From Sphingobacterium allocomposti (GTDB lineage: Bacteria; Bacteroidota; Bacteroidia; Sphingobacteriales; Sphingobacteriaceae), in NCBI RefSeq assembly GCF_008124885.1, contig NZ_VNHX01000009.1, forward strand, positions 1-64,000: a DNA stretch of 64,000 nucleotides, written 5' to 3'. Shown in pieces: positions 29,351-57,356 of the stretch. The notes below the pieces were generated by a model. That model ran no database searches and was not told where the DNA came from. It saw only the letters and a list, made by a program, of their open reading frames with translations. The translations under genes and the position numbers were made by a program. How positions within the stretch are numbered: position 1 is the stretch's first letter; every line of letters begins with the position of its first letter.

Positions 29351-31666
29351 TTACTTATCAAGCAGATTGACCACATCTTCGCGACGCGCAGCGGGTACCA
29401 CGTGCAGGTCAACTAATTTCCCCCCGCGCAATTTCCCCTGCACTGTCGTCTGTTGAGGCGCATGCAGCTTGAAGTCCACATCCCACTCCCGAGGCCATGC
29501 GGGAAAGAGATAAATTTTATCATCCGCGGTTTGAAGAAGCATCTCCTGCAAACCGATCATTCCAGATCCGCCCCAATTGTGATCTGGTACCCAATCGAAT
29601 CCCGGCCCCCAGAATGTTGGAAACCGCCGCGGCGCGTCGCCCAGCTTCAGCAGGGTGAGCCGCTTTGCTTCATCTGTCAGCCCTAAACGGGCCGCAAAGA
29701 TGTTGTCTTGTTTCCATCCTACATGACTTCGGAATTTCAGCAGATCCGGGTCCAGCCAATAGGTATTTCGAGCGACCTCCAGCTCCGCCTTTCCGACGCC
29801 GTATATACCCCAGGGAAATACGGGATAGAGTTGAGGCGCTTCCGTATTGTTGAGGCGGGCCCATAGTTGGGCGGGTGCTAACACCTTCTTGCCGTCGATT
29901 TCCCGCGTGGGCAGAGGAGGGATACGTTTTTGAAAACCGGTGAGATAGGCAGATAGTGATGTATCCCGCTTCACCTCCGTTAGCGACAGCATACGTTTGG
30001 TCACCTCCTGGAGCGCTGCTACCGTCGTTGATGCATTATAAGCCATTTTATAGGTCTCCGCAGAAGAGCCGGGATAAAATATTAAATGTCCCTGCTGATC
30101 CAACACTTTGCTTCCCGATTGCCGTGCCCGATACTGATAATGTTCATCAAAAAAACGCAGGCAACTTTCTATAAATGGGATATACGTCTGCACCTCTTTC
30201 CCGCCGTAATTCTGCGTTTCCAGCATCATCATACAAAACTCCAGCACCGTATCCCACTGGTATTCGAGCCACGCATTATATTCCAGCCCCGCATCATAGT
30301 CCTTGGGGCGCTTCCAATTGTACTCGGCCGGATTAGGCAGGCCAAAATTTTCGAGCTGTTCCGTAAAACTAGCGCCATCGTGCCCCCAATACACCTTAGA
30401 TCGCCATTCGGCGTTCCGCTGCAGCCGCTGATAAAATTTGAATTGCGCAGGCATCATGTCAAAGTCCCCGCTCTTCAGCATTGGCCAATATACCAACCGC
30501 TGATTTTGCGCGGTATGTGTGCCTCCTCCCCAATTCCGAAAATCCGGCGTGAAGGTGAATGTACTATCTACTCCGGACGGATCATAGGTGAACAGCCCTC
30601 CATTAAACTTCGTCGGGTACTCCCCATAGGCATTACACGCCAGCATGTAGCGAAAGAGCTGATAATTCCGCCCGATACGCCACGCTTCCTCTTCCTTATC
30701 TTGATTTTGCGGAAGGATAGCGATGTAGCTCCGTTCCCAAAATGCGCGCCACCAGGCCTCCGTTCGTTTTTTCCGCACAGCTAAGGGCCGCTCCGCGCCC
30801 GCTAATCGATTGATCCGCTCCACCCACTCCGCCAGGCCGTCCGTTTGTTGAGCAAGCAGCGTCACTTGTACATGATGCGTTTTACGCGGGTGCCGGCTTC
30901 TTAATACCCACGCCCGAAAATCCGTATCCGCATAACGGCCCTCGCGCTGTTCCACAAACGCTAGCGCATCTCCCTGCATAAGCCCTCCGGAGATCAACCC
31001 CGCCAGAGGATTATATAAAGAGTCTTTCACCCCTGTCAGCTGCTGCTGGCGGACGACGATATCAAAAGCCGTGGTATCGCGGTTTTTATGGTAAAAAACA
31101 ATCGCATTATCTGCCGCTCGAATGCTATCCTTATGCGTCACGACCCGATGCGGAGGCGCCCACTTCCAGGAATTGGCGTTATTTTCTTTCTTTTGTGGGT
31201 ATAAGTCCTTGTAGCGCCAGCTTTCGTAGCTAGCCTCCATGCTTATTTTCTTATTTGCTTCGACTTCCACATGCACATTGGGCGTATGTACATCCACCCA
31301 CACCAATACCTTCGCCTTAACATCGCGATGCTGTCCTTCAAGCACAATATGTCCTTTATCCAACTGTAGCTCCTGCCGGAAATCCCTGCCTTCAAATGGA
31401 TTGGGCGACAGCGTAAGCCGCACACGACCGAGTTTTAACAAGGTATTGTTTTCGTCGAATGCACCACTCTTCCCCAGATAAAAAAGAATATCCCCATTTT
31501 CTACCCACACGTTCAGCCCAATATCTCCGCCGCCAACCGGCATTGATTCCGCAGAGCTTTTACTGGGTGCTGTCCATAACACGTTATAATCTTTCCAGGA
31601 AAAGTCCTGTGCGAAAACAACGCACACGTTGAGACAAAAAGCCAACACAAGTATATATCGTTTCAT
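29351..31666 (-). CDS. Secreted DUF5703-domain protein, GH95-like glycoside hydrolase candidate
   Basis: A 771-residue exported protein (signal peptide 1-19, cleavage after VFA). The N-terminal beta-sandwich (about 20-260) is the DUF5703 region with SAESMPVGGGDIGLNVWV and NGDILFYLGKSGAFDE, related in layout to the GH95 fucosidase N-domain. Residues about 300-700 look like an (alpha/alpha)6 barrel, and a short beta domain ends the protein. GH95 members release L-fucose or L-galactose; activity for this one is inferred only. It is the last gene of the glycan cluster, 52 bp after the esterase gene. Confidence 0.75.
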   Translation of the reverse strand: MKRYILVLAFCLNVCVVFAQDFSWKDYNVLWTAPSKSSAESMPVGGGDIGLNVWVENGDILFYLGKSGAFDENNTLLKLGRVRLTLSPNPFEGRDFRQELQLDKGHIVLEGQHRDVKAKVLVWVDVHTPNVHVEVEANKKISMEASYESWRYKDLYPQKKENNANSWKWAPPHRVVTHKDSIRAADNAIVFYHKNRDTTAFDIVVRQQQLTGVKDSLYNPLAGLISGGLMQGDALAFVEQREGRYADTDFRAWVLRSRHPRKTHHVQVTLLAQQTDGLAEWVERINRLAGAERPLAVRKKRTEAWWRAFWERSYIAILPQNQDKEEEAWRIGRNYQLFRYMLACNAYGEYPTKFNGGLFTYDPSGVDSTFTFTPDFRNWGGGTHTAQNQRLVYWPMLKSGDFDMMPAQFKFYQRLQRNAEWRSKVYWGHDGASFTEQLENFGLPNPAEYNWKRPKDYDAGLEYNAWLEYQWDTVLEFCMMMLETQNYGGKEVQTYIPFIESCLRFFDEHYQYRARQSGSKVLDQQGHLIFYPGSSAETYKMAYNASTTVAALQEVTKRMLSLTEVKRDTSLSAYLTGFQKRIPPLPTREIDGKKVLAPAQLWARLNNTEAPQLYPVFPWGIYGVGKAELEVARNTYWLDPDLLKFRSHVGWKQDNIFAARLGLTDEAKRLTLLKLGDAPRRFPTFWGPGFDWVPDHNWGGSGMIGLQEMLLQTADDKIYLFPAWPREWDVDFKLHAPQQTTVQGKLRGGKLVDLHVVPAARREDVVNLLDK

Positions 31667-44542: not shown

Positions 44543-45844
44543 TCAATGGCTCGCGTCCGTACGGACTTTATACCCTTTAATGGCGTACCAGAAGATAACG
44601 AGGTAGCATACCAAAGGTACAATATAACCTATCTGTGCATTGTCTCCGGCGCGATCAATCATGTCTCCCGTAAGGAAGGGAAAAACCGCCCCGCCTACAA
44701 TAGACATAATCAGCCAGGAAGATGCTTGTTTCGTATCATTTCCCAGTCCGATAATACCCAAGGAGAAGATCGTGGGAAACATAATAGACATAAAAAAGCC
44801 TAAACCGCCCAAAGCATACAGCACCATCATCCCTGAACCAAACACCGCCGTCGCCGCCAATAAAACACAGGCGAACGCATACATCGACAACAGACGCGGA
44901 GCGCTGGTATACCGTAATAGAACAGTGCCCACAAATCGGCCGGCCATAAACAACAAGCCGTATACGCCAAGGTAATAGCCTGCCGTCTTTTCGTCGACGC
45001 CGGCTCCCTGCTGCGCCATCCGGATGAAAAAACTAGTGACGCAGACCTGTGCACCCACATAAAAAAATTGCGCTAACACAGCAAAGGCCAAATGCTTATG
45101 CCGAAGGACGGCAAAGAAGCTCCTTTTTCGGCCCGGATCTTCTGTCATCTCCGAAGACTTGATCTCAGGAAGCTTCACGAAGATAAACAGAATGGCTACG
45201 ATCAGTAAGACCAGGCCGAGCGTGAGATAGGGCAGCTTCACAGAAGAGGCTTCATGCGTCAGATAAGCCTGGCGAGCAGTTTCTGTCATGGCCTCCAGCT
45301 CGGATTCCGAATAGCTCGTCCCCGAGAGGATAAATATCGTTCCAACAACTGGGGCCACCATCGCGGCCAATCCATTGAATGAAGCGGCCAGATTCAGCCG
45401 GTGCGTAGCCGATTCGGGAGGGCCGAGAACCGCTGCATACGGATTTGCGGCCGTCTCCAAAACGGCTAAGCCGCAGCCGATAATAAATAGCGCTAGCAGA
45501 AAAAGCTCGTACATCCGAAGGTCGGCAGCAGGAATAAACAAAAAGGCGCCCAACGAAAAGGTGATCAAGCCGATGATTATCGACAGCTTATAGCCCCATC
45601 TACGGAGCAGGTAACCGGCCGGTATGGCCATCACGAAATAGGCAAAAAATACGGAAGTATCGACCAGTGCCGACTGGCTATTATCCAGCTGGCAGGCCTT
45701 CTTTAAGTGGGGAATAAGCACCCCGTTCAGGTTATGTGCCATGCCCCACAGGAAGAACAGGCTAACGATCAAAATAAATGGAAAAAGATAGTTCCTGTTG
45801 CCGGCACCTATTGCCGCGGGCTGCGCGTTTGTATTGGCTTGCAT
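44543..45844 (-). CDS. FucP-family MFS sugar transporter
   Basis: A 433-residue inner-membrane protein with 12 predicted helices. It shows the FucP signatures LETAANPYAAVLG (with Glu130, matching E. coli FucP Glu135) and RLNLAASFNGLAA. The residue matching FucP Asp46, needed for proton coupling there, is Gly41 (NLNGVLIPHL). It probably takes up L-fucose or another monosaccharide released by the cluster; substrate and coupling are uncertain. It follows the MaoC gene by 30 bp as the last gene of the upstream operon. Confidence 0.88.
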   Translation of the reverse strand: MQANTNAQPAAIGAGNRNYLFPFILIVSLFFLWGMAHNLNGVLIPHLKKACQLDNSQSALVDTSVFFAYFVMAIPAGYLLRRWGYKLSIIIGLITFSLGAFLFIPAADLRMYELFLLALFIIGCGLAVLETAANPYAAVLGPPESATHRLNLAASFNGLAAMVAPVVGTIFILSGTSYSESELEAMTETARQAYLTHEASSVKLPYLTLGLVLLIVAILFIFVKLPEIKSSEMTEDPGRKRSFFAVLRHKHLAFAVLAQFFYVGAQVCVTSFFIRMAQQGAGVDEKTAGYYLGVYGLLFMAGRFVGTVLLRYTSAPRLLSMYAFACVLLAATAVFGSGMMVLYALGGLGFFMSIMFPTIFSLGIIGLGNDTKQASSWLIMSIVGGAVFPFLTGDMIDRAGDNAQIGYIVPLVCYLVIFWYAIKGYKVRTDASH

Positions 45845-45874
45845 ATTAGGTTTATAAAATATTTAAAAAATCAG

Positions 45875-46330
45875 TTATGCTGGGGTGCTGTCCTTGCGCT
45901 TTGCCAACAGGATATGGTCAGCCACCAACACCACCTCCCCATGTTGATTGAGAATCTCCACGTGTTCAACGACAGTGCCAAACTCAGGGTTTTTAGCCGC
46001 TGACTTCTCGGAGATTGTCACTTCTGCATGAATTGTGTCCCCAATAAATACGGGCTTAACAAATCGCAGTCGATCATATCCTTTCGAAAAAGCTTCTGGA
46101 TTGATGACCGACGCCGTAAGACCTATGCCAATAGCAAAGATCATGGTACCATGGGCGATACGTTGCCCAAATGGCTGGGTCCTGCACCACTCCGCATCCA
46201 TATGGTGTGGAAAGAAGTCGCCCGTATGTCCTGCATGCACCACGAAATCCGTCTCCGTTATCGTACGCCCTAATGTTACCCGTTTATCGTTTAACAGATA
46301 ATCTTCAAAGAAAATAGATTCAAAATGCAT
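45875..46330 (-). CDS. MaoC-like (R)-specific enoyl-CoA hydratase
   Basis: A 151-residue single hot-dog-fold protein. The hydratase motif is at 37-43 (GDFFPHH): Asp38 and His43 are the catalytic pair, while the Asn usual in the GDxNPxH form is Phe40, a variant seen in hydratases of branched or dicarboxylic acyl-CoAs. [11 protein letters not shown] follows. It should add water to an enoyl-CoA in the cytoplasm. Its place beside two CoA-transferases suggests it acts on the acyl-CoA they make. No hydratase partner or dehydrogenase of beta-oxidation is near. Confidence 0.88.
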
Positions 46331-46378
46331 TATAATAAAATTAAAAGTTAAAAATCACCTTCTATCCTTCGTCGGATG

Positions 46379-47458
46379 TCATTCTTCATTTCTATAGTGT
46401 ATGGGCTGTCCACCCCGGCTGCTGCTTTGATACGCTGCTTCGACCACGGCCATGGTATGGATAACATCCTCCACGGCTGCGGGCAGCACGTGGATTTCGC
46501 CCAATTTAAAACGCATGAGGCTGCCCATACTGCCGATGAAAGCATCTGGAAACCACGAGCCTTCGATCGGAACCGGCACCCAGTCGGCAATCCCATCCGC
46601 ACCCTTTATACAGTATTCGAACGCATCGGGCACGCCGTGCGGATAGTCCATCAGCAGTCCCATCTTTGCTTTGATCGCCCCTTTGGTTCCTTCCCATTTG
46701 ATGAAACTCTCCTGATGTCGCGCCCCGAAGTCATGGTCATGATTGGTATTCACGACAGCATGCATCGTGTCTCCATAGTCAAACAGTAGCGTCGTCCGGC
46801 TGGAGCTTAGTTCTTTTGCCGGATGTTTTAACGTTTTCGCATACACGGATGCCGGATTGCCGAGAAAAGAACGGATCAGGTCGATGTAATGTACGCTGTG
46901 GTATAGGATCTCCAGCCGGGGATGGATCATGACATGCGGAAAAAGCTCCCACGGTGTGTTGACGGTGACGCGGACTTCCATATCGTAGAGCGGACCGATA
47001 TAGCCGTTTTCGATCAGCCACCGTGCCGCGTTTACAAACGGAGCCTGCCGTAGCTGGCAGTTGATGGCGGCCACCAGACCCTTACGTTGACAGACTTCGA
47101 GAATTGCCTCGCTCTGGGGAAAATAATCGCCCATCGGCTTCTGAATCAGCACGGCCGCTCCGTCCGGTAGCATCTCTAATGTTTCGATAAACTGGCTTGG
47201 CATAATGGTGATGTCATACACCGCATCAGACGGTGCTTGAGCTACCGCATCGGCCACCGTGTCGTAGACATAAGGAATGCCAAATTCTTCTGCCAACGAT
47301 TCCGCTTTGGCGCGCGTTCGGTTGACAATGCCATGCACGGTGAATCCGGCCTTTTTATAGGCCGGTAAGTGTGCATCCTTCACTATCCCGCCGGCGCCAA
47401 TGATGACGATGGGCAAGTTCTTCTGCGGTAATACCGCATGGTATGGAATTTCTATCAT
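46379..47458 (-). CDS. Gfo/Idh/MocA-family oxidoreductase (copy 1)
   Basis: A 359-residue NAD(P)-dependent cytoplasmic oxidoreductase. The Rossmann fold begins near residue 16 with IVIIGAGGIVKDAH, and the family lysine-proline motif is IQKPMGD. The C-terminal alpha/beta substrate domain follows. Such enzymes oxidise, reduce or epimerise sugars and cyclitols. Its ATG overlaps the stop of the upstream solute-binding-protein gene in an ATGA (47455-47458), so it is translationally coupled to that cluster. No clear substrate. Confidence 0.88.
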   Translation of the reverse strand: MIEIPYHAVLPQKNLPIVIIGAGGIVKDAHLPAYKKAGFTVHGIVNRTRAKAESLAEEFGIPYVYDTVADAVAQAPSDAVYDITIMPSQFIETLEMLPDGAAVLIQKPMGDYFPQSEAILEVCQRKGLVAAINCQLRQAPFVNAARWLIENGYIGPLYDMEVRVTVNTPWELFPHVMIHPRLEILYHSVHYIDLIRSFLGNPASVYAKTLKHPAKELSSSRTTLLFDYGDTMHAVVNTNHDHDFGARHQESFIKWEGTKGAIKAKMGLLMDYPHGVPDAFEYCIKGADGIADWVPVPIEGSWFPDAFIGSMGSLMRFKLGEIHVLPAAVEDVIHTMAVVEAAYQSSSRGGQPIHYRNEE

Positions 47459-48678
47459 GTTAACTCCTCTATCTTTTGTTGCGCTTCATAAAGTAGCACA
47501 TTGCTCTCCGTGTTGGTTTGTATTGCCTGGTTCACCATCTGGTCGATAATATGGGCAATGGCAGCCCAATTGCGTAGACGTGGTAATGTACGTGCTGTCT
47601 CATGTAGCTGTTCAAGCTTCGCGTAGAAAGGTATCCGTCCGTTTATTTCTGCGTCTGTCCAGGTTGTCCGTCGACACCCTACCCCTCCTGTCAGCGTAAG
47701 TTGTTTATCCTGTTCGGGCTGCACCGCAAACCGCAGGAAGTCGTATGCCCGCTCCTTATGTGCACTTCCATTGCCAACTGTATACAACCAATAGACATTC
47801 AGCGAAGGTGCGGCATACCCGTCGCATGCTGGAATTGGCGCGATATCTACTTGTCCCCGTACAGCTGACGCCTCATCAATATGCGCCCAGGAAGCGAATC
47901 CGAACCAGTTAACCATCATAGCGGCTTCACCACGCGCAAAAGCCTGCCCCGCTTGTACCGATTCGTAGTCCAGCGACTTGGGATGCAGTCCGCACGGTTC
48001 TCGAAACAGCCTGCGGTAGAAGTCTAAGGCGTCGACCGCAGCGGCCGACACCAGTGAGACCGCTCCGGAAGTTGTGGTCAGCTCACCGCCCCGAGCCCAT
48101 AATTGTATGCAGAAGTCAAAAACCGCATTATGTCCATCGGGATAGCCGCCGAAGACGGTCCCGTATAAACCTTGTTCTGGACGATAAAAAAAAGAGGCTA
48201 CGTCAAGAAACTCGTCCCACGTCTGCGGAGCACGAAGCTCACGGCTGTGCTGTTCAAAAAAACGCTCCTTTTCCGTCGTCGCATTGAATAGATCCTTTCG
48301 CAACACCAAACACTCCGGGCCGTCGTGAAACGGCAATCCATAGAAATGTCCCTCAAACTGCTGTAACTTTGTCAAGCTGGGCGCCCAGGCGTCTATCCCC
48401 CCCTCGGGAGGCTGCTTTTTTATATACTCGTCGAGTGGTTGTATGCAGCCTCTCTCATAGGCTTCTGTTATCCAGTCGGTATTCACGTGTGCGATATCCC
48501 AAGTGCCGTTTTGCAGACCATCCTTTTGAAATAGCGCTGCATACAGCTCTTCCAGGTCCATGGGTACAAATTCCATTTGGATATCCGACGGATACATCGC
48601 TTGATAGCGGGACCAAGTATCTGCCAGTGCCTGTTCGAATGGGGCAAACTTTCGTACTGCAAACCGTAGTTTAGCCAT
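47455..48678 (-). CDS. Sugar-type ABC solute-binding protein without signal peptide (SBP-B)
   Basis: A 407-residue protein of the bacterial extracellular solute-binding family 1 fold ([42 protein letters not shown]). The first residues, [18 protein letters not shown], already form the first strand and helix, so no signal peptide or lipobox is present and the protein should stay in the cytoplasm. No ABC permease or ATPase is in the window. It overlaps the upstream CoA-transferase by 8 bp and the downstream Gfo/Idh gene by 4 bp. It may bind the substrate or product of the CoA-transferase; that is inference. Confidence 0.8.
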
Positions 48679-49813
48679 ATAACTCCTTTTTTATTTGCTC
48701 GGTATGCTCTCCTAATCTGGGTGACCCGCGTTCCGCCTTGAGGCGTTCGCCATCAATCCGTATAGGGCAGCGGGTCGTATCGTAACCAAAGCCGTCCTCC
48801 ATATATACACGTTGAACCATATCCAAAACGTTGAAGCCGTCGTGTGCGGTCAGCCTGTTCCAATCCAGCACATCGGCACACCAGATATCAGCAGCTTCTA
48901 AAATTGATAACCAATGTGCCGTTGTCGACGTGGCCAGGTGTTCCGATAAGATAGCCTTTATGTCGCTACGCTGTCGAAAAGCCTGCTCACCGTCGGAAAA
49001 GTTCTCCAGCGGCGCGCATGACAGTAGCCGTCCCAACAAGGGGATAGAACCCATGGCGAGCGCCAGAAATCCGTCTTGCGTCTTATAAATACCATAGGGA
49101 GCAGCCAGATATGCGTGGGCATTGCTCACACGGGTACGTTCAGGTAGCTGCCTGCCATCCCGAAAATAGGTCGTTACCGCTTCAAACTGTATATCTACAG
49201 CGGAATCCAGCATACTTATCTGTACCAGCGCGCCCACATGCTGTATTGCCCGGCGGTATAAGCAGGCGAGCAAAGCGCTGCAAAGGTTCATGCCGGCGAA
49301 CATGTCGACGATGGACAATCCCATCGGTACGGGGCCATGGTCGGCATCGCCGCTCAACCATGTCATCCCGGTAAGCGACTGCAGCAGCAGATCCTGACCG
49401 GGGTTCTTAGACCAGGGGCCCTTATCCCCGTAGCCCGATATCTCTCCGTAAACGACGTCAGGGTTGATCGCCCGCACTGCGGCATAGTCGAAGCCCAGGC
49501 GCTCCATCACGCCCGGCCGGAAGTTATGCATGACCACGTCCGCTTTTTTTATTAAATCCCATATCACCTGACGGTCTGCCTCGTCCTTGACATCGAGCGC
49601 CACACTTTCCTTATTGCGGTTGATGGCATGAAAGACGGTGGACATCCCATTCAGCACCGTGTCGGATGTATACATGTGTCGACAGATGTCGCCGGTGACA
49701 GGTCTCTCGATCTTGATGACACGTGCACCCAAATCGGCGAGCCTCAGGCCCGCAAGGGGGCCGGACAGAAATTGGCTGAAATCTACCACCGTAAAATCTG
49801 CTAATGGCAACAT
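48671..49813 (-). CDS. Family III CoA-transferase, CaiB/BaiF type (CoAT-B)
   Basis: A 380-residue cytoplasmic enzyme that moves CoA between carboxylic acids. Family motifs are [20 protein letters not shown] at the N-terminus, [24 protein letters not shown] and [11 protein letters not shown]. The catalytic Asp, which forms the acyl-aspartyl anhydride in formyl-CoA transferase, matches Asp170 in SIVDMFAGM. It starts 1 bp after its paralogue CoAT-A and overlaps SBP-B by 8 bp. At 380 residues it is shorter than FRC or CaiB, near the racemase-like branch. Its acid substrate is unknown. Confidence 0.9.
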
Positions 49814-49814
49814 A

Positions 49815-50966
49815 CTAATCGTTTAAAAAGTCTTTTACAATTCGTTCATTATCCTGACCGACCTTGGGAGCAGGCCGGGCCGAAAATAGAAAGCGTCCAT
49901 CGATCCGGTAAACACTTCTCGGTGTATGCAGTATGGACCCGTCGTGTAGATCCACTTCCTGCAACATCCTGGACTCAGCAAAACCTTCTCCCTCCAGAAA
50001 CTCGCGGTAGTTGTTGACGGGTGCACACCAGATCCCTTCGGCTTCCAAAGTTTCGATCCATGTATCTGTATCTTTACCCACGAATACGTTCCCCAGTTCC
50101 CGCATGATGCGATCGCGTTCCGAGAACCATGTCGTCCGGTCGGCATAACGCCATCCCTCCAGACCGATGCATGAGGCAATCTTCTCCAAATCGCCCATTG
50201 CTAAGGCTAAGAAACCATCGCTTGTCCTGTATAGGCCGTAAGGTGCACTAAGGTATGCATGTCCTCCACCGCGTATCTTTGCCCGCTTTGGAAGCTGTCC
50301 GCCATCGTTAAAATATGTCGTCAGCACTTCAAATTGCATGTCGAGCGCCGACTCCAGCAAGCTAACCTCCACCTTCACCGCCCGTTGCGTACGCGATCGC
50401 TTTAGCAGTGCCGCCAGAATTCCCTGCGTGAGGTGAGTAGCGCAGTACATATCGATGACCGCTAAACCGAAGGGTGTTGGGTTATCCCCATCGCTGCCGG
50501 AGAGCCATGTCAACCCCGACATCGATTGAACCAGCAGATCCTGTCCCGGCTTCTTAGCCCAAGGTCCCTCCTCTCCATATCCCGTCACCGTGGCATAGAT
50601 GATCTTCGGGTTCAGGGCAGTAACGCTGTCGTAATCCAAGCCGATTTTTTCCATTACACCCGGACGAAAATTATGCGTAATAATATCGGCTTTTGCAATA
50701 AGCTTCCGGATAGCAGCCAGGTCCTCGGCGTTTTTCAGATCTGCGGCGTACGACTCTTTGTTTCTGTTGATCGTATGAAACACCAAACTGCTATCATCAA
50801 CAAATATATTCTTAATAGCAATCTGGCGTCCTGCCTCTCCGCTTCCCGGCCGCTCGATCTTAATGACACGTGCACCCATATCCGCGAGACGTAGCCCAGC
50901 TGTCGGTCCGGCCATGAACTGAGAAAACTCCAGCACTACCAAGCCCGCTAATGGTCGGTTATCCAT
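49815..50966 (-). CDS. Family III CoA-transferase, CaiB/BaiF type (CoAT-A)
   Basis: A 383-residue paralogue of CoAT-B with the same motifs: [44 protein letters not shown] and [11 protein letters not shown]. The catalytic Asp equivalent is Asp172 in [10 protein letters not shown]. The pair could form a heteromeric enzyme or act on two acids. The ATG at 50966 is chosen over that at 50972 because it gives an 8-bp overlap with the upstream SBP-A, the same as the CoAT-B/SBP-B overlap. Confidence 0.9.
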
Positions 50967-52125
50967 GCACATTTTCTATTAGTTGTGATTCTCTATACAG
51001 CTTGTTGATGTTGTCAAGCACCGCCTGTTCGTCACCTCCGTTTCGTAGATAACGGACGATGATATCCCCTGCGTGGTCCTGAAAATGCATATGCCCGAAG
51101 TACCGGGGACGCAGGAAAGCCCGTTGCAGCGCGGGTAAGGTATCGCGGAAAAAGTTTGACGTGTACGCGTTAACATAATCGTTTTCCCACGCTTTCAAAT
51201 GCCCGGGCTGCCCCCCGTTTTCCACGTATATAGACGATTGTATCGACGGCGATCCGACAAAACGGGCATAGTCCACGGCGGTCGCTATGTTTGCGCTACG
51301 CGCGGAAACTGCAAGTCCTGCTCCACCAAGTGTACTTATCATAGGACCCCGATCGTCCAGCGATACGAGGTCGTGAAAATGTAAAACCTTACGCGCGTAC
51401 CCCTCCCGCGCATAGTTGGAATAACCATAGGCAAACGGACAATAAACGATCTCATCATTGTTTGCCATGTCCTCAAAGACCATAAACGGATTTTTAGCAT
51501 AAAACCGTTTGTCAGTTAGGTCTGCCAACGACTTGAACAGCTGCAGCGCCTTTACCCCTGTCGCTTCGCTGACCACTTCCTCTGCACGTGCACAGGGCTT
51601 CTCGCCAAGCGAGCAGCAGAACATGTAGAAGCTCATCAAAACATCGACGGGAATCAGTGAGAACGCCACTCTTCCGCGCTCCGCCAAGGCCAGTACGTCG
51701 GCAAAGGTGTTCGGCAGGGACAGCCCCAGTTCCGCCAGCAGATCCGGTCTGCTAGCCGCTACCGGTGTGGCCGCATCAATCGGTAGCGCCCATTGTTTGC
51801 CTTCAAAATTATAACTGGTGTACGACTGCCCCACACTATTTATGCGCTGGTCTTCCAAATATTCTCTTTCCAGGTAATCGTCAAACGGAACAACCATTTT
51901 CTTTGCCGCCGCGTGCCCCGTCCACGGATGGTCGATAACCAGCAAATCGTACTCGCCGGCAAGCTCCTCAATAGACTTGTCGGCAAACTCCTGCAACGTG
52001 CGTTTTTTCCAGACGATCTCCACCTCCGGATGGAGCTCTTCATAACGTTGTGCGGTGGCAACCATCGGCACAAAACCACGGGAGTGCCCCCATGTTATAC
52101 CTTTCAACTGAATTTTTTTTGTCAT
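50959..52125 (-). CDS. Sugar-type ABC solute-binding protein without signal peptide (SBP-A)
   Basis: A 388-residue relative of solute-binding family 1 (ITWGHSRGFVPMVATAQRYE, YDLLVIDHPWTGHAA, FVGSPSIQSSIYVENGGQPG). It begins MTKKIQLKGITWGHSR, directly in the first beta strand, with no signal peptide, no lipobox and no membrane helix, so it is predicted cytoplasmic. No ABC transporter genes are near. It overlaps CoAT-A by 8 bp. SBP-A and SBP-B differ a good deal in sequence, so they are not a recent duplication. Confidence 0.8.
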   Translation of the reverse strand: MTKKIQLKGITWGHSRGFVPMVATAQRYEELHPEVEIVWKKRTLQEFADKSIEELAGEYDLLVIDHPWTGHAAAKKMVVPFDDYLEREYLEDQRINSVGQSYTSYNFEGKQWALPIDAATPVAASRPDLLAELGLSLPNTFADVLALAERGRVAFSLIPVDVLMSFYMFCCSLGEKPCARAEEVVSEATGVKALQLFKSLADLTDKRFYAKNPFMVFEDMANNDEIVYCPFAYGYSNYAREGYARKVLHFHDLVSLDDRGPMISTLGGAGLAVSARSANIATAVDYARFVGSPSIQSSIYVENGGQPGHLKAWENDYVNAYTSNFFRDTLPALQRAFLRPRYFGHMHFQDHAGDIIVRYLRNGGDEQAVLDNINKLYRESQLIENVHG

Positions 52126-52173: not shown

Positions 52174-53754
52174 CTATTTAAATAGCAGGTACAAACCCGC
52201 CATCACGATAAATAAGACGCCCCACGCGCATTTTACTTTTGCTGTCGGGCGTTCTGTCTTAAGGTCATATACAAACTCGCTTTCTTTTTCAAATGCCGAC
52301 TTTCCTACCACTAGAGAGATGCCTATACCTAAGATCAGGAGCAACACGAACAGATAGAAAGAAAGCAACAAATAGTGCGGCCAGAAATCATAAACATCTT
52401 TCGGGAACACCCATAGATAGAGTATGCCTGTACCGAGGCTCAAAACAGCACCGCCTGTCAGCAAAGCGTTCACCGCCGCTCTGTTTGTCCGTTTCCAAAG
52501 CACAGCCAGAAGGAACACGACGGCTAGCGGCGGCGCAATGAAGCCGAGGATAGACTGGAAGACGTCGAACAGGTTAAGCCCCTTAATCTGATCGATGGCT
52601 ATCGCCATGAAGACAGCCATAAGGCAGCCGACAACAATCGTGTAGCGTCCTATCCGCGTAACCTCTTTGCTGTCTGCACCGGGTTTTATGTGTTTAAGAT
52701 AGATATCCATCGTGAAGACCGTACTAAGCGAGTTCAGTGAAGAACCGATCGTGCCCACCAGCACGGCGATTAATACCACAATCACAAGGCCGTTCAATCC
52801 CGTAGGGAAAAGGTTCGTCACCATCGTCATGTAGGCCAACGATGGATCTTCCAGCCCCGGAAACAAGATGTAACAGATGATACCTGTCAAAATGAATAGC
52901 GGCAGGGAAAGAATCTTCAGCCAGGCAATGAAGTTTACCCCGAGCTGTCCTTGCTCCAGGCTCTTCGCTCCCAACACCGACTGCACCATGGCCTGGTCCG
53001 TGCAGAAAAACGCGATAGCAGCTACCGGATAGCCCAACGCAATGGCATACCAGGGATAGTCGGGGTCGCTGGCGGGACGAATAAGCGACCAGTAGTCTGT
53101 TGGCGTGCTTTCGACCAATACGTGCCATCCTCCGATTTTGGACAAACCTAAGAACGTCAACAAGGCAGATACCAAAATAAGCAATATCATCTGGAAGATA
53201 TTGATTTTTGCCACGGTTTTAAGTCCACCAGTGTACGCGAAGAGCCCTGCCAACGCGACCAGCACCGTAACCGATTGCCACATGGGTATGCCTAGGATCT
53301 GCCGAACCAAAAAGCCGCCCGCGAACAAACCTAACGATAACCAGGAGATCAACATTTTTACCAACGAGTACCAAGCTAAAATCGTCTGGGTGCCGGGGCC
53401 GAACCGCTGCCCCATGAATTCGGGGAGCGTACGCACGCCAGACATCAGGTAGCGGGGCGCGAAGACGACGGCAAGTAGGAACAGGAACACAAACGCATAC
53501 CAATCGAAGTTAACGGCGACAATTCCCGTGGTATAGCCCACGGTAGCGAAAGCCAGTAACATGGAGGGACCTACGTTGGTTGCCCACATATTGAAACCGA
53601 TACTGTACCAACTTAAGGATTTTCCGGCCAGAAAATGTGCTTCGCCATCCGCACGTTTGCGGGAAGAGAACAAACCGATAGCCAACAACACCAAGAGGTA
53701 GACCACCACGATGGCGTAATCGACAATAGTCAGTTTATCGACAATATTGTTCAT
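52174..53754 (-). CDS. Sodium:solute symporter (SSS family)
   Basis: A 526-residue inner-membrane protein with about 13-14 predicted helices, belonging to the sodium/solute symporter family (LAGKSLSWYSIGFNMWATNV, then GFIAPPLAVVFLLAVLWKR). In glycan clusters these carry sugars or sugar acids across the inner membrane with sodium. Its position, 1 bp after the Gfo/Idh gene and 48 bp before SBP-A, suggests it imports the compound handled by the CoA-transferase group. The specific substrate cannot be read from sequence. Confidence 0.9.
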   Translation of the reverse strand: MNNIVDKLTIVDYAIVVVYLLVLLAIGLFSSRKRADGEAHFLAGKSLSWYSIGFNMWATNVGPSMLLAFATVGYTTGIVAVNFDWYAFVFLFLLAVVFAPRYLMSGVRTLPEFMGQRFGPGTQTILAWYSLVKMLISWLSLGLFAGGFLVRQILGIPMWQSVTVLVALAGLFAYTGGLKTVAKINIFQMILLILVSALLTFLGLSKIGGWHVLVESTPTDYWSLIRPASDPDYPWYAIALGYPVAAIAFFCTDQAMVQSVLGAKSLEQGQLGVNFIAWLKILSLPLFILTGIICYILFPGLEDPSLAYMTMVTNLFPTGLNGLVIVVLIAVLVGTIGSSLNSLSTVFTMDIYLKHIKPGADSKEVTRIGRYTIVVGCLMAVFMAIAIDQIKGLNLFDVFQSILGFIAPPLAVVFLLAVLWKRTNRAAVNALLTGGAVLSLGTGILYLWVFPKDVYDFWPHYLLLSFYLFVLLLILGIGISLVVGKSAFEKESEFVYDLKTERPTAKVKCAWGVLFIVMAGLYLLFK

Positions 53755-53755
53755 G

Positions 53756-54844
53756 CTATTCCGATAAGTTTACATTATATCTGGCTAGTAAATCCTTGGG
53801 CCGAACGGGCTTTCCTGTGGACAAGGATTCGTCCATGGCCTGCAATAGGGCGATCGTGCCAATACCTTCTTTCATGTCCGGAAATGCCGGTTCTCCGGTC
53901 CTTATCGCCTGCCCAAAGTATTCCAGATAGTTTTGGTATTCGCCCGCATGGTGGCTTTTTCCTTCGAAACGGAAGTAATGTTTCAATTTATGTTCCCATG
54001 TCAAGATGCGCTCCTCCCCGGTCTTATCCGTGATCGCATAGCGCAGATCCATGTAATCTGCCTGGCTTGCTCCTTCCGTGCCGCGCAGGATACAGCTCAT
54101 CTCGCTGTCGCGGGTCACTGGTTGTATAGGTCCGGTGTAAGCTCCACTCACCCGTGCGACGCGTCCGTCTTCGGCTTTGAAGATGAAGTGCATGGTGTCG
54201 GCATTCTGTAATCCTCCTTTTCTACCATTGGCACTTAGCATACCGTACCCCATCACCTCCTCAATATTCGGCAGATACCAGCGTATAAAGTCGACCGGAT
54301 GGCTTAAGCCGCCATATAGCCATTTGAATGAGGACTGCAGTGCCCATGGCTTTTCTAAAAACCAACGATGATCAGCATGATAGTAGCCTTCAATCGTAAT
54401 CAGATCGCCGATAAGGCCTGCTTCGAAATCCTGCCGTTGCTTTTTCAAAGGTTCGAAAAAACGGGAGCTTTGTCCTACGAACACGCGTTTATTTTTTTTC
54501 CTTGCCAGCTCTAACAGCTCGTTGGCATCGGCTAAGTTATCAATGAACGGCTTGGTACAGATCACATGCTTATCGTGTTCCAACGCTTGGCGGATATGTG
54601 CTGCATGCAGATGGTCGGGTGTATAAATAGCTATCGCTTCGATATCGGGATCCTGCAGAAGATCTTCGTAACGACGCGTGTAATTCCGGAAATCAAACTC
54701 CTTGACGCGCTTTCGCCCGAGCTCTTCGTTCAGGTCGCATATCTGTACTAGCTCTATGTGTGGGCTTTGCAGTGCCGCTGACATGGTGCTGCGGCCTTCA
54801 CCTAACCCTAAAATCCCTAATCTTAATTTGCCTGTAAATTGCAT
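53756..54844 (-). CDS. Gfo/Idh/MocA-family oxidoreductase (copy 2)
   Basis: A 362-residue NAD(P)-dependent oxidoreductase. The Rossmann motif is LGILGLGEGRSTM, and the catalytic lysine region is VICTKPFIDN; the C-terminal domain contains YHADHRWFLEKPWALQ. The start at MQFTGKLRLG is 1 bp after the stop of the upstream beta-helix gene; a frame 16 codons longer would overlap that gene. It is clearly different from copy 1, so it likely has a different sugar substrate. Confidence 0.88.
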   Translation of the reverse strand: MQFTGKLRLGILGLGEGRSTMSAALQSPHIELVQICDLNEELGRKRVKEFDFRNYTRRYEDLLQDPDIEAIAIYTPDHLHAAHIRQALEHDKHVICTKPFIDNLADANELLELARKKNKRVFVGQSSRFFEPLKKQRQDFEAGLIGDLITIEGYYHADHRWFLEKPWALQSSFKWLYGGLSHPVDFIRWYLPNIEEVMGYGMLSANGRKGGLQNADTMHFIFKAEDGRVARVSGAYTGPIQPVTRDSEMSCILRGTEGASQADYMDLRYAITDKTGEERILTWEHKLKHYFRFEGKSHHAGEYQNYLEYFGQAIRTGEPAFPDMKEGIGTIALLQAMDESLSTGKPVRPKDLLARYNVNLSE

Positions 54845-54845
54845 G

Positions 54846-57356
54846 TTATTTCTTATAAAAAATCCAAGTTTCATTTGCTGCCGCCCCTTCAATACCTTCT
54901 TGGTAGCTCCCCATCAACTTATTCCACTCGAGTACGCGGGGATTATCCTCGGTTGTTAAGCGGTCTATTTCTTCAAAGTTCTTTCCTTTCGGAAATGAGA
55001 TATAGAGCATCAGCTGCCGGTCGTTCCGATATAATAACACCTCTTCAAAGCCGGCCCGGCAGAAGCCCCTGGCTACCTCAGGCCACTCTTTTTGCTGATT
55101 TTTGTGGGCGTCAAGGTATTCTTGCTGTTTAACCTTGTCATCAACAAGCTGTGCAGTGAGCAGTACGAAATCGGTCTCCCCCGGTTCCGGATCCGGCGCA
55201 CACTGCGAACGGTCAAAGCTGTAAAAAAGGTTATTAAACACCTTGTATGCTATCGCTGGATATGTCGCGAGCCAGGCGCCAGCCATCTTCTTACCGAGTT
55301 CGTCTGTGGTTTGCCAAATGGTATACGTTTTCCAGCGGTATACGTGCGTAGGGTCGCCACCTTGCTTCGCGATAAAAGCCTTAACTTCCTGCTCCGAGAC
55401 CGAACCCTTCGGATCATAGATCTGAAAAAACACCGGCTTTGTAAATGGGATATACGCATTGAATCGGGCCACCGTATCTAAGGGAAGCAGCCTGTTGCGC
55501 ATAGCAGAAAAGCGGTGCTGTAGCCCGGCGTTCTTCACCAGGTTCCGATCTACCTGCGGACCATTGTTTTTCCACTCAACGCCCGGACCGTTAGCATTTT
55601 GTAAAATCTTGTTGGCGAGGAACCAATTGTCGGAGACATTCATATACGCAGACCCTTCATCAGTATAGAGATAAAACCAATGGTCTGGAAGATGTGCATA
55701 AGGCGACAAATAGATACTATCGATATGGTTACGTTGGATTCTCGTACCAGGCTGTGCCGACAATGTATATATACCCGCCACGTCATACATAAATTTACCG
55801 TACCGGGTAATTTTGTTTTCCACCACCCTATTGTTTTTCATGCTGTTTACCGTTGGCGTCCATCCCCATCCCAAACTGATACCTGTATAGGGTAGGTCCA
55901 GTAGCTCGTTGTGCATAATCTGGACATTTCGGACGAATCCGGCACCGATACCGACAGCGCCCCAGTCTTCCCGACCGATATGCTGGAGTAGATTGTTGGT
56001 GATGACGACGCCATCTGTCAACGTACGTTCATCCTTCGGCTGATAGGGAAGGTGTGCTTCAAATTCCTCTTCGGAGAATGTCCCCAGCAGGACGCCGGAG
56101 CCTCCGATATCCTGAAAGAAATTACCTTCCAACGTATCGCACCTATTCCCTGACCGGTAGTCTATTCCCGTTGATGCCAAATGGGTAAACGTACAGTTAC
56201 GAAATGCGGTGTAAGCGGTATGCCTCATTTCGACGGCTGCTTTCGGCCGCCCCACCCACGCTTGGTTTTCAAGCCCTGCTTTGTCTGGCGTCCCCGGTTT
56301 AATCAGTTTGTACGCCTCGACAAAATACATACCCGCCTGCAATGCTACATGTCCATGTGTATGAGGTCGAAGCCACGCACTATGCTGAAATGTTAGCCCT
56401 TCGATAGACAAGTGTTCCACCGGATGTTCGGCTGTGCCGACGACCTGCAAGATAGTTTCGAGGTAGGGTACAACGGCCGTGGCCACCTCCATATCTTCGT
56501 CTTCCCGCGGGTAATAGTAGAGCTTATGTGTATATTCATCAAGAAACCATTCGCCCGGCTGATCTAAAAACTGCAGCGCGTTCAAAAGACGGAACGCCGA
56601 GTTCCCGTGCTCCTTGGACAGCCAGGGCTTCGGCCAGGGGTGCTCATTCTGTATGCGCGATTCCGGCTCATGAAATGCGAGCACAATGCTGTCTTTGGAA
56701 ATGTTAGCATCGCGCACACGAAGCTGGGCTACCGCCCACCATTGGTGAATGAAGAATTCCATTCCGGCTGTCGGCTTAAAGCCTGGAAAAATATTAGGGA
56801 TAGTCGCCGTACCGTCCTGAAAGTTCCAGTTTAATATACGGGGCAGCTGCTGATCGCTGTGGCTTTCTGCGCGTACAGCTTTGCGTCCGTTTACCCAGAG
56901 CTGCCGGAACGGGAAAAACTTTCCTCCCGCCATGGGTGCGTCGGCGACAAACAGACGCTTGGCTACATGGGACGGTACACCTTCCACCTTACCTGCCGGC
57001 CTCCATGTCTTGACCGGAATACCCCCCGACAAGACCGCAGCGTCGGCCATCGCCCGTATACGCGTTGGACTGTCCGCCGTTCCGCTGTCTTCAGGCCGGA
57101 TCAAAATGGTTTGGGATGGGGAATATACTCCGTCTCCCACCCAGATATCAATTCCTCCCTGCACACGGCTGTCGCCCAGCCTGCGCCATTCACGGGCCTC
57201 CCGAAGGGCGTCTTCCAAGCTGGAGAAAGGTGATCCTTTACTGCCATCGCCCCGTCCCGACATATTTTTCCCCACATAGATTTCGCCTGCATAGCTGATG
57301 CTTCCGCCAATGGAGGCAAGGAAAAGCATCATTATCATCAACGTTTTTTTATTCAT
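54846..57356 (-). CDS. Secreted beta-helix glycosidase-like protein fused to an L-rhamnose-mutarotase-like domain
   Basis: An 836-residue exported protein (signal peptide about 1-23). The N-terminal two thirds form a right-handed parallel beta-helix with PFRQLWVNGRKAVRAE and FRNCTFTHLASTGIDYRSG, similar in layout to GH141-type pectin enzymes. Residues about 728-836 resemble L-rhamnose mutarotase (RhaM): EYLDAH aligns with the RhaM EYxxxH motif, keeping Tyr747 and the catalytic His751, then EWPEVARGF and VLEWNKLMGS. A glycosidase and an anomer-converting domain on one chain would couple release and mutarotation of a 6-deoxy sugar outside the cell. The fusion is seen directly; the activities are inferred. 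Confidence 0.78.
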   Translation of the reverse strand: MNKKTLMIMMLFLASIGGSISYAGEIYVGKNMSGRGDGSKGSPFSSLEDALREAREWRRLGDSRVQGGIDIWVGDGVYSPSQTILIRPEDSGTADSPTRIRAMADAAVLSGGIPVKTWRPAGKVEGVPSHVAKRLFVADAPMAGGKFFPFRQLWVNGRKAVRAESHSDQQLPRILNWNFQDGTATIPNIFPGFKPTAGMEFFIHQWWAVAQLRVRDANISKDSIVLAFHEPESRIQNEHPWPKPWLSKEHGNSAFRLLNALQFLDQPGEWFLDEYTHKLYYYPREDEDMEVATAVVPYLETILQVVGTAEHPVEHLSIEGLTFQHSAWLRPHTHGHVALQAGMYFVEAYKLIKPGTPDKAGLENQAWVGRPKAAVEMRHTAYTAFRNCTFTHLASTGIDYRSGNRCDTLEGNFFQDIGGSGVLLGTFSEEEFEAHLPYQPKDERTLTDGVVITNNLLQHIGREDWGAVGIGAGFVRNVQIMHNELLDLPYTGISLGWGWTPTVNSMKNNRVVENKITRYGKFMYDVAGIYTLSAQPGTRIQRNHIDSIYLSPYAHLPDHWFYLYTDEGSAYMNVSDNWFLANKILQNANGPGVEWKNNGPQVDRNLVKNAGLQHRFSAMRNRLLPLDTVARFNAYIPFTKPVFFQIYDPKGSVSEQEVKAFIAKQGGDPTHVYRWKTYTIWQTTDELGKKMAGAWLATYPAIAYKVFNNLFYSFDRSQCAPDPEPGETDFVLLTAQLVDDKVKQQEYLDAHKNQQKEWPEVARGFCRAGFEEVLLYRNDRQLMLYISFPKGKNFEEIDRLTTEDNPRVLEWNKLMGSYQEGIEGAAANETWIFYKK

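Follow-up and report, generated by a model that had tools for sequence, protein, structure and literature searches.

A predicted secreted GH141 glycosidase fused to a double module of the rhamnose/fucose mutarotase family in Sphingobacterium allocomposti

The fusion gene and its locus

The window analysed here, a 64,000-nucleotide stretch of Sphingobacterium allocomposti DNA, contains a single reading frame without internal stops (54846-57356, minus strand) that encodes an 836-residue protein in which a GH141 beta-helix is followed by a C-terminal tail of the rhamnose/fucose mutarotase family. The domains, fold, conserved residues, clade, co-occurrence and gene order reported below were computed in this study, and the features of the protein and of the two genes that follow it are these:

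54846..57356, minus strand: GH141-mutarotase fusion gene, 836 aa (open frame; Pfam GH141_M and rhaM)
57288..57356, minus strand: signal peptide, residues 1 to ~23, without a lipobox (read from the sequence: a hydrophobic stretch, then SISYA/GEIYV)
55506..57293, minus strand: GH141 beta-helix catalytic domain, residues 22-617 (5mqp BT_1002, E 2e-177, TM 0.94)
55659..55784, minus strand: stretch with predicted catalytic Asp525 (55782-55784) and Asp566 (55659-55661), aligned to BT_1002 D523/D564
55209..55439, minus strand: tail, first ferredoxin-like half, residues ~640-716 (predicted model)
54849..55175, minus strand: tail, mutarotase-type half (PF05336), residues ~728-836 (Pfam; structural matches 7byu, 1x8d, 2qlw, 6hhn)
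55104..55118, minus strand: Tyr747 and His751, counterparts of RhaM Tyr18 and His22 (invariant, 62 sequences)
55200..55202, minus strand: conserved Cys719 (52/53 fused or double stand-alone modules)
55059..55061, minus strand: conserved Cys766, candidate disulfide partner of Cys719 (53/53 fused or double stand-alone modules)
53756..54892, minus strand: Gfo/Idh/MocA oxidoreductase, the next gene downstream of the fusion, its true start probably nearer 54850 (Pfam)
52174..53754, minus strand: sodium:solute symporter, SSS (NCBIfam sss superfamily, above cut-off)

Pfam places GH141_M at residues 134-284 (E 1.7e-57) and rhaM (PF05336) at residues 742-831, the latter scoring 35.7 bits (E 1.1e-8) when the whole protein was scanned and 40.0 bits when only the C-terminal 134 residues were, against a curated cut-off of 23.4 bits; a genome-wide search with PF05336 also recovers the fusion protein. 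The EYxxxH motif takes the form EYLDAH (residues 746-751). An alignment of full-length proteins shows the same fusion in 32 sequences that are 44-71% identical to the one studied here, and because it recurs in this way it cannot be put down to chance. An assembly or frameshift artefact was considered and rejected, as many genomes carry the fusion and the free copies begin with hydrophobic N-termini of an export type; some of the unfused module genes overlap the end of the GH141 gene by a few bases, L078 being an example.

In an AlphaFold model of the full-length protein (pLDDT 87.8), the beta-helix superimposes closely on BT_1002, with which it shares 46% identity. Two aspartates that are essential in BT_1002, D523 and D564 (PMC10154630), align with Asp525 and Asp566, both of which are unchanged across the 32 fused proteins; the numbering of the PDB chain is offset by five from that published for BT_1002, which is consistent with Q336 (PMC12786026). 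GH141 also includes a xylanase and endo-fucanases (PMC12786026), and it is the closeness to BT_1002, which releases 2-O-Me-Xyl-alpha1,3-Fuc from chain A of rhamnogalacturonan-II (RG-II; PMC10154630), that favours alpha-L-fucosidase among these activities. The protein is thus probably a secreted, pectin-degrading GH141 enzyme that releases fucose, in keeping with a preliminary description of the sequence as encoding a secreted GH141-like beta-helix glycosidase.

Surrounding genes in the window encode GH78, GH78-like, GH106, GH127, two GH2 and GH130/43-like enzymes, an esterase and two SusC/D pairs. The locus resembles an RG-II locus in this respect, on what we take to be the general RG-II assignments of such genes. 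The same cluster holds a DUF5703_N protein (29351-31666, minus strand; E 6.7e-115), a homologue of which also lies near L111, one of the loci for exported mutarotase-family proteins described below. Another block (44543-52125, minus strand) interleaves two homologues of extracellular solute-binding proteins (47455-48678 and 50959-52125) with two family III CoA-transferases, continues with a Gfo/Idh/MocA enzyme, a MaoC dehydratase and an MFS transporter, and is kept beside the fusion in several Sphingobacterium relatives; no signal peptide is visible in either solute-binding homologue, and no ABC permease is found nearby.

The two halves of the tail

The part added to the glycosidase had been described as one domain of ~109 residues starting at about residue 725. 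It proves to be a module of ~200 residues that begins near residue 640, and a model of it built with 62 relatives (pLDDT 91.8) contains two beta-alpha-beta-beta-alpha-beta units, at residues ~640-716 and ~728-836. The first half, for which pLDDT is mostly above 90, occurs in every fused and double stand-alone form. The second half has its best structural match in the L-fucose mutarotase 7byu (Z 9.7 over 101 residues, 2.3 A), and it also matches the rhamnose mutarotases E. coli RhaM (1x8d, Z 7.8), RhaU (2qlw, 7.4) and Formosa RhaM (6hhn, 7.1), so that a RhaM-type fold is found together with both the Tyr and the catalytic His on which the preliminary description had based its call of a RhaM-family domain.

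When the whole module is compared with single chains that contain two such units, Z reaches at most 9.5, but with an rmsd of 4-6 A. The tail may resemble a dimeric alpha+beta barrel, with the first half probably standing in for the dimer's second subunit, a pseudo-dimer arrangement that we infer. The idea that the first half is a duplicated RhaM was not upheld: profile comparison gave a probability of only 0.4-6%, and as the first unit has no significant profile similarity to RhaM, common descent of the two halves is unsupported. Each half contributes one of the two conserved cysteines, and single-domain and cytoplasmic forms have Lys or Arg at the position of Cys766; a Cys719-Cys766 disulfide is a candidate feature that would suit an exported protein.

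A sequence search with the last 134 residues alone returned no matches among solved structures, and a profile of the tail found there only an L-fucose mutarotase, weakly (E 0.34). As matches of this kind are absent or weak, the assignment rests on Pfam, structure and the tree. That the tail is a domain of the PF05336 rhamnose/fucose mutarotase family is nearly certain.

Ancestry and occurrence of the module

No variation at Tyr747 or His751 occurs among the 62 aligned relatives, two cytoplasmic ones included, and Trp758, Trp811, Met815, Gln819 and Trp831 are likewise invariant. Among Tyr41 and Trp76-Trp77, which from UniProt annotation we take to be the substrate residues of RhaM, Trp76 alone is retained, as Trp811, with Tyr41 replaced by Val773 and Trp77 by Asn812, and these same changes are present in cytoplasmic fucose-type proteins. 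The tail has no match to the RhaM equivalog model TIGR02625 up to E 1, whereas the true RhaM of the same genome reaches 118, above the cut-off of 99.6; profile similarity of the module is 99.5% to the fucose-type set as opposed to 11% to classical RhaM. Profile searches of the kind proposed in the preliminary description thus place the domain in the PF05336 family as a whole and not in the RhaM equivalog within it.

A tree of 61 PF05336 proteins puts the classical RhaMs and 7byu on one side and a Bacteroidota clade with the tail on the other (support 99/97); 7byu, the closest fucose mutarotase to have been characterised, groups with RhaM, apart from the tail's clade, on a long branch. All exported forms, whether fused, double stand-alone or single and lipoprotein-like, make up one subclade of the Bacteroidota clade (100/98), and L053, labelled as cytoplasmic in the tree, has an exported-looking N-terminus as well. 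Twelve cytoplasmic members of the clade have a FucP gene (8 loci) or a GH29 gene (4 loci) beside them, and this holds even when the distance is limited to 1.5 kb. Phylogeny and gene neighbourhood therefore point to descent of the tail from a fucose-type clade and not from a classical rhamnose mutarotase, and we know of no characterised member of this clade.

Two features would fit an exported L-rhamnose mutarotase that acts on rhamnose set free by the GH78 and GH106 enzymes encoded nearby, namely the Pfam name of the family and the rhamnosidase genes of the locus. The rhamnose assignment made in the preliminary description is, however, at odds with the clade, the equivalog model, the profile values and the replaced Tyr41 and Trp77, and furthermore the module is tied to GH141, and a true RhaM that scores above the equivalog cut-off is encoded separately in the genome, beside a GH106 rhamnosidase gene; an exported rhamnose mutarotase is therefore very improbable.

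Other members of the family show a range of settings. What looks like a non-phosphorylating operon for L-fucose lies at L117:6857-13234 of the same genome and encodes FucP, a cytoplasmic fucose-type mutarotase, a UxaA-like dehydratase, a GH29 alpha-L-fucosidase, an SDR and an FAA hydrolase. The genome also has a third cytoplasmic PF05336 protein, a divergent one (L119:1580-1984) that is encoded just upstream of a SusC/D-like pair and shares a long branch of the 61-protein tree with L128. Single-domain, exported, lipoprotein-like proteins of ~143 residues are encoded at L108-L116 (e.g. L111:8555-8986); an SSS symporter is adjacent in 9/9 cases, and aldo-keto reductase and enolase-family dehydratase genes also adjoin the single-domain loci inspected. 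Neighbouring genes thus indicate that exported forms go with SSS symporters and cytoplasmic forms mostly with FucP.

In a survey of 301 genomes of the same family, with the module counted from listed open frames, GH141 of the BT_1002 type is present in 102 genomes from ten genera and the module in 100, fused at 77 loci and unfused at 24 (both kinds occur in one genome). All but two of the 102 GH141 genomes have the module, the two having GH141 alone, and no genome has the module alone; these are counts over related genomes of one family, and owing to this kinship the Fisher p-value computed from them cannot be read as a real probability. Outside the family, 12 more fusions occur in two further families of its class. 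The combination, at first thought exceptional, is accordingly a regular feature of the family, in which free, exported versions are common as well. GH141 lies in the same locus as the module at each of the 20 unfused loci examined, with the module directly downstream in 17. A single fusion event was considered and rejected, as the module tree requires ~8 changes between fused and free forms (bootstrap 5-8), at least two of them forced by well-supported branches. The Gfo/Idh/MocA oxidoreductase and the SSS symporter are downstream in 53/53 fused or double stand-alone loci examined. The previously suggested link of the domain to sugar uptake is plausible. The presence of GH141 and the exported module as one protein or in one cluster, beside an importer, suggests that outside the cytoplasm the release of the sugar, the conversion of its anomer and its import form a coupled process.

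Free copies also bear on whether the tail could be a mutarotase derivative that binds sugar without catalysis and holds the fucosylated chain or product for the GH141 domain, an alternative already raised in the preliminary description. Binding domains are common on glycosidases, and the two altered RhaM substrate residues would be in line with such a role. Yet the same residues are altered in cytoplasmic fucose-type proteins too, Tyr747 and His751 never vary, and unfused copies in the same locus have an export signal of their own, which a tethered binder would not need; we consider a binding role unlikely.

Proposed function and relation to known systems

The best reading of the sequence and its context is that the tail acts outside the cytoplasm as a mutarotase for the sugar released by GH141, either fucose or 2-O-Me-Xyl-Fuc, and serves the symporter. 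Mutarotase activity of the tail appears likely, and on balance a substrate that is fucose or a fucosyl product is favoured. As for the protein as a whole, it seems reasonably probable that an exported GH141 alpha-L-fucosidase is combined here with a secreted fucose-type mutarotase in a double module, within an RG-II-like locus. In such a scheme, GH141 would free a reducing-end fucose, by itself or as 2-O-Me-Xyl-alpha1,3-Fuc, as one anomer, and the tethered domain would use His751 and Tyr747 to open and reclose the ring, thereby speeding equilibration and supplying the other anomer. The adjacent SSS symporter would import whichever anomer it prefers, a preference that we infer, and the Gfo/Idh/MocA enzyme would act on the imported sugar inside the cell. 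In vitro, the related product 2-O-methylfucose needed up to about 3 h for spontaneous mutarotation (PMC12282258).

It has been reported that 2-O-Me-Xyl-Fuc accumulates in B. thetaiotaomicron (PMC7939467), and bacteria that use the disaccharide would therefore need extra enzymes. It is tempting to speculate that, during use of RG-II chain A by Sphingobacteriaceae and related Bacteroidota, GH141 and the exported mutarotase pass the right anomer of 2-O-Me-Xyl-Fuc or fucose to the SSS symporter and that the Gfo/Idh/MocA enzyme then opens a route for 2-O-Me-Xyl-Fuc, although we offer this route only tentatively. The same accumulation could be taken to mean that the module is an enzyme that is no longer a mutarotase and carries out some other reaction on the GH141 product, such as 2-O-Me-Xyl-Fuc, with the first half as part of the active site. 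The strict tie to GH141 would agree with this, as would the first half and the cysteine pair, which distinguish fused and double forms from all other members. However, the set of Tyr, His, Trp, Trp, Met, Gln and Trp is common to the cytoplasmic fucose-type proteins, which favours the ancestral reaction, and the chance of a different one seems to us slight.

Should the mutarotase reading hold and the tail be active, this would be a glycosidase with a built-in mutarotase, a numerous group of exported mutarotases would lie behind the bare Pfam label 'rhaM', and the uptake of a released sugar would be limited in nature by its ring-opening, a situation for which the precedent known to us is NanM with sialic acid. 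It would also provide a way in to the fate of RG-II-derived 2-O-Me-Xyl-Fuc. For annotation, PF05336 in Bacteroidota divides into a rhamnose branch and a fucose branch. The parts of the fusion protein are of known kinds, and the fusion, the double module and exported fucose-type mutarotases are apparently new: a partial literature search, outside which most subscription journals lie, returned no report of a glycosidase-mutarotase fusion, of GH141 with a mutarotase, of the double module or of an exported RhaM/FucM.

Four known systems invite comparison. BT_1002, the RG-II alpha-L-fucosidase of B. thetaiotaomicron, shares the fold of the catalytic part and the Asp pair but has no tail, stopping at about residue 617 of the fusion protein. 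The Acidovorax avenae L-fucose mutarotase 7byu, also of PF05336, has the Tyr, His, first Trp, Gln and last Trp in common with the tail; it differs in being a stand-alone, single-domain protein of 16% identity and in retaining the second Trp and the Tyr that the tail lacks. RhaM/YiiL (1x8d), RhaU (2qlw) and Formosa RhaM (6hhn) share the fold and Tyr18/His22, whereas the tail has Tyr41 and Trp77 replaced, fails the equivalog model, and is exported and joined to a glycosidase, the characterised RhaMs being cytoplasmic. NanM acts on a different sugar, is an unrelated protein and is not fused to the hydrolase that releases its substrate. What it shares with the system proposed here is the logic, as this periplasmic sialic acid anomerase of E. 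coli provides the precedent for an exported anomerase that helps the uptake of a released sugar (PMC8141875).
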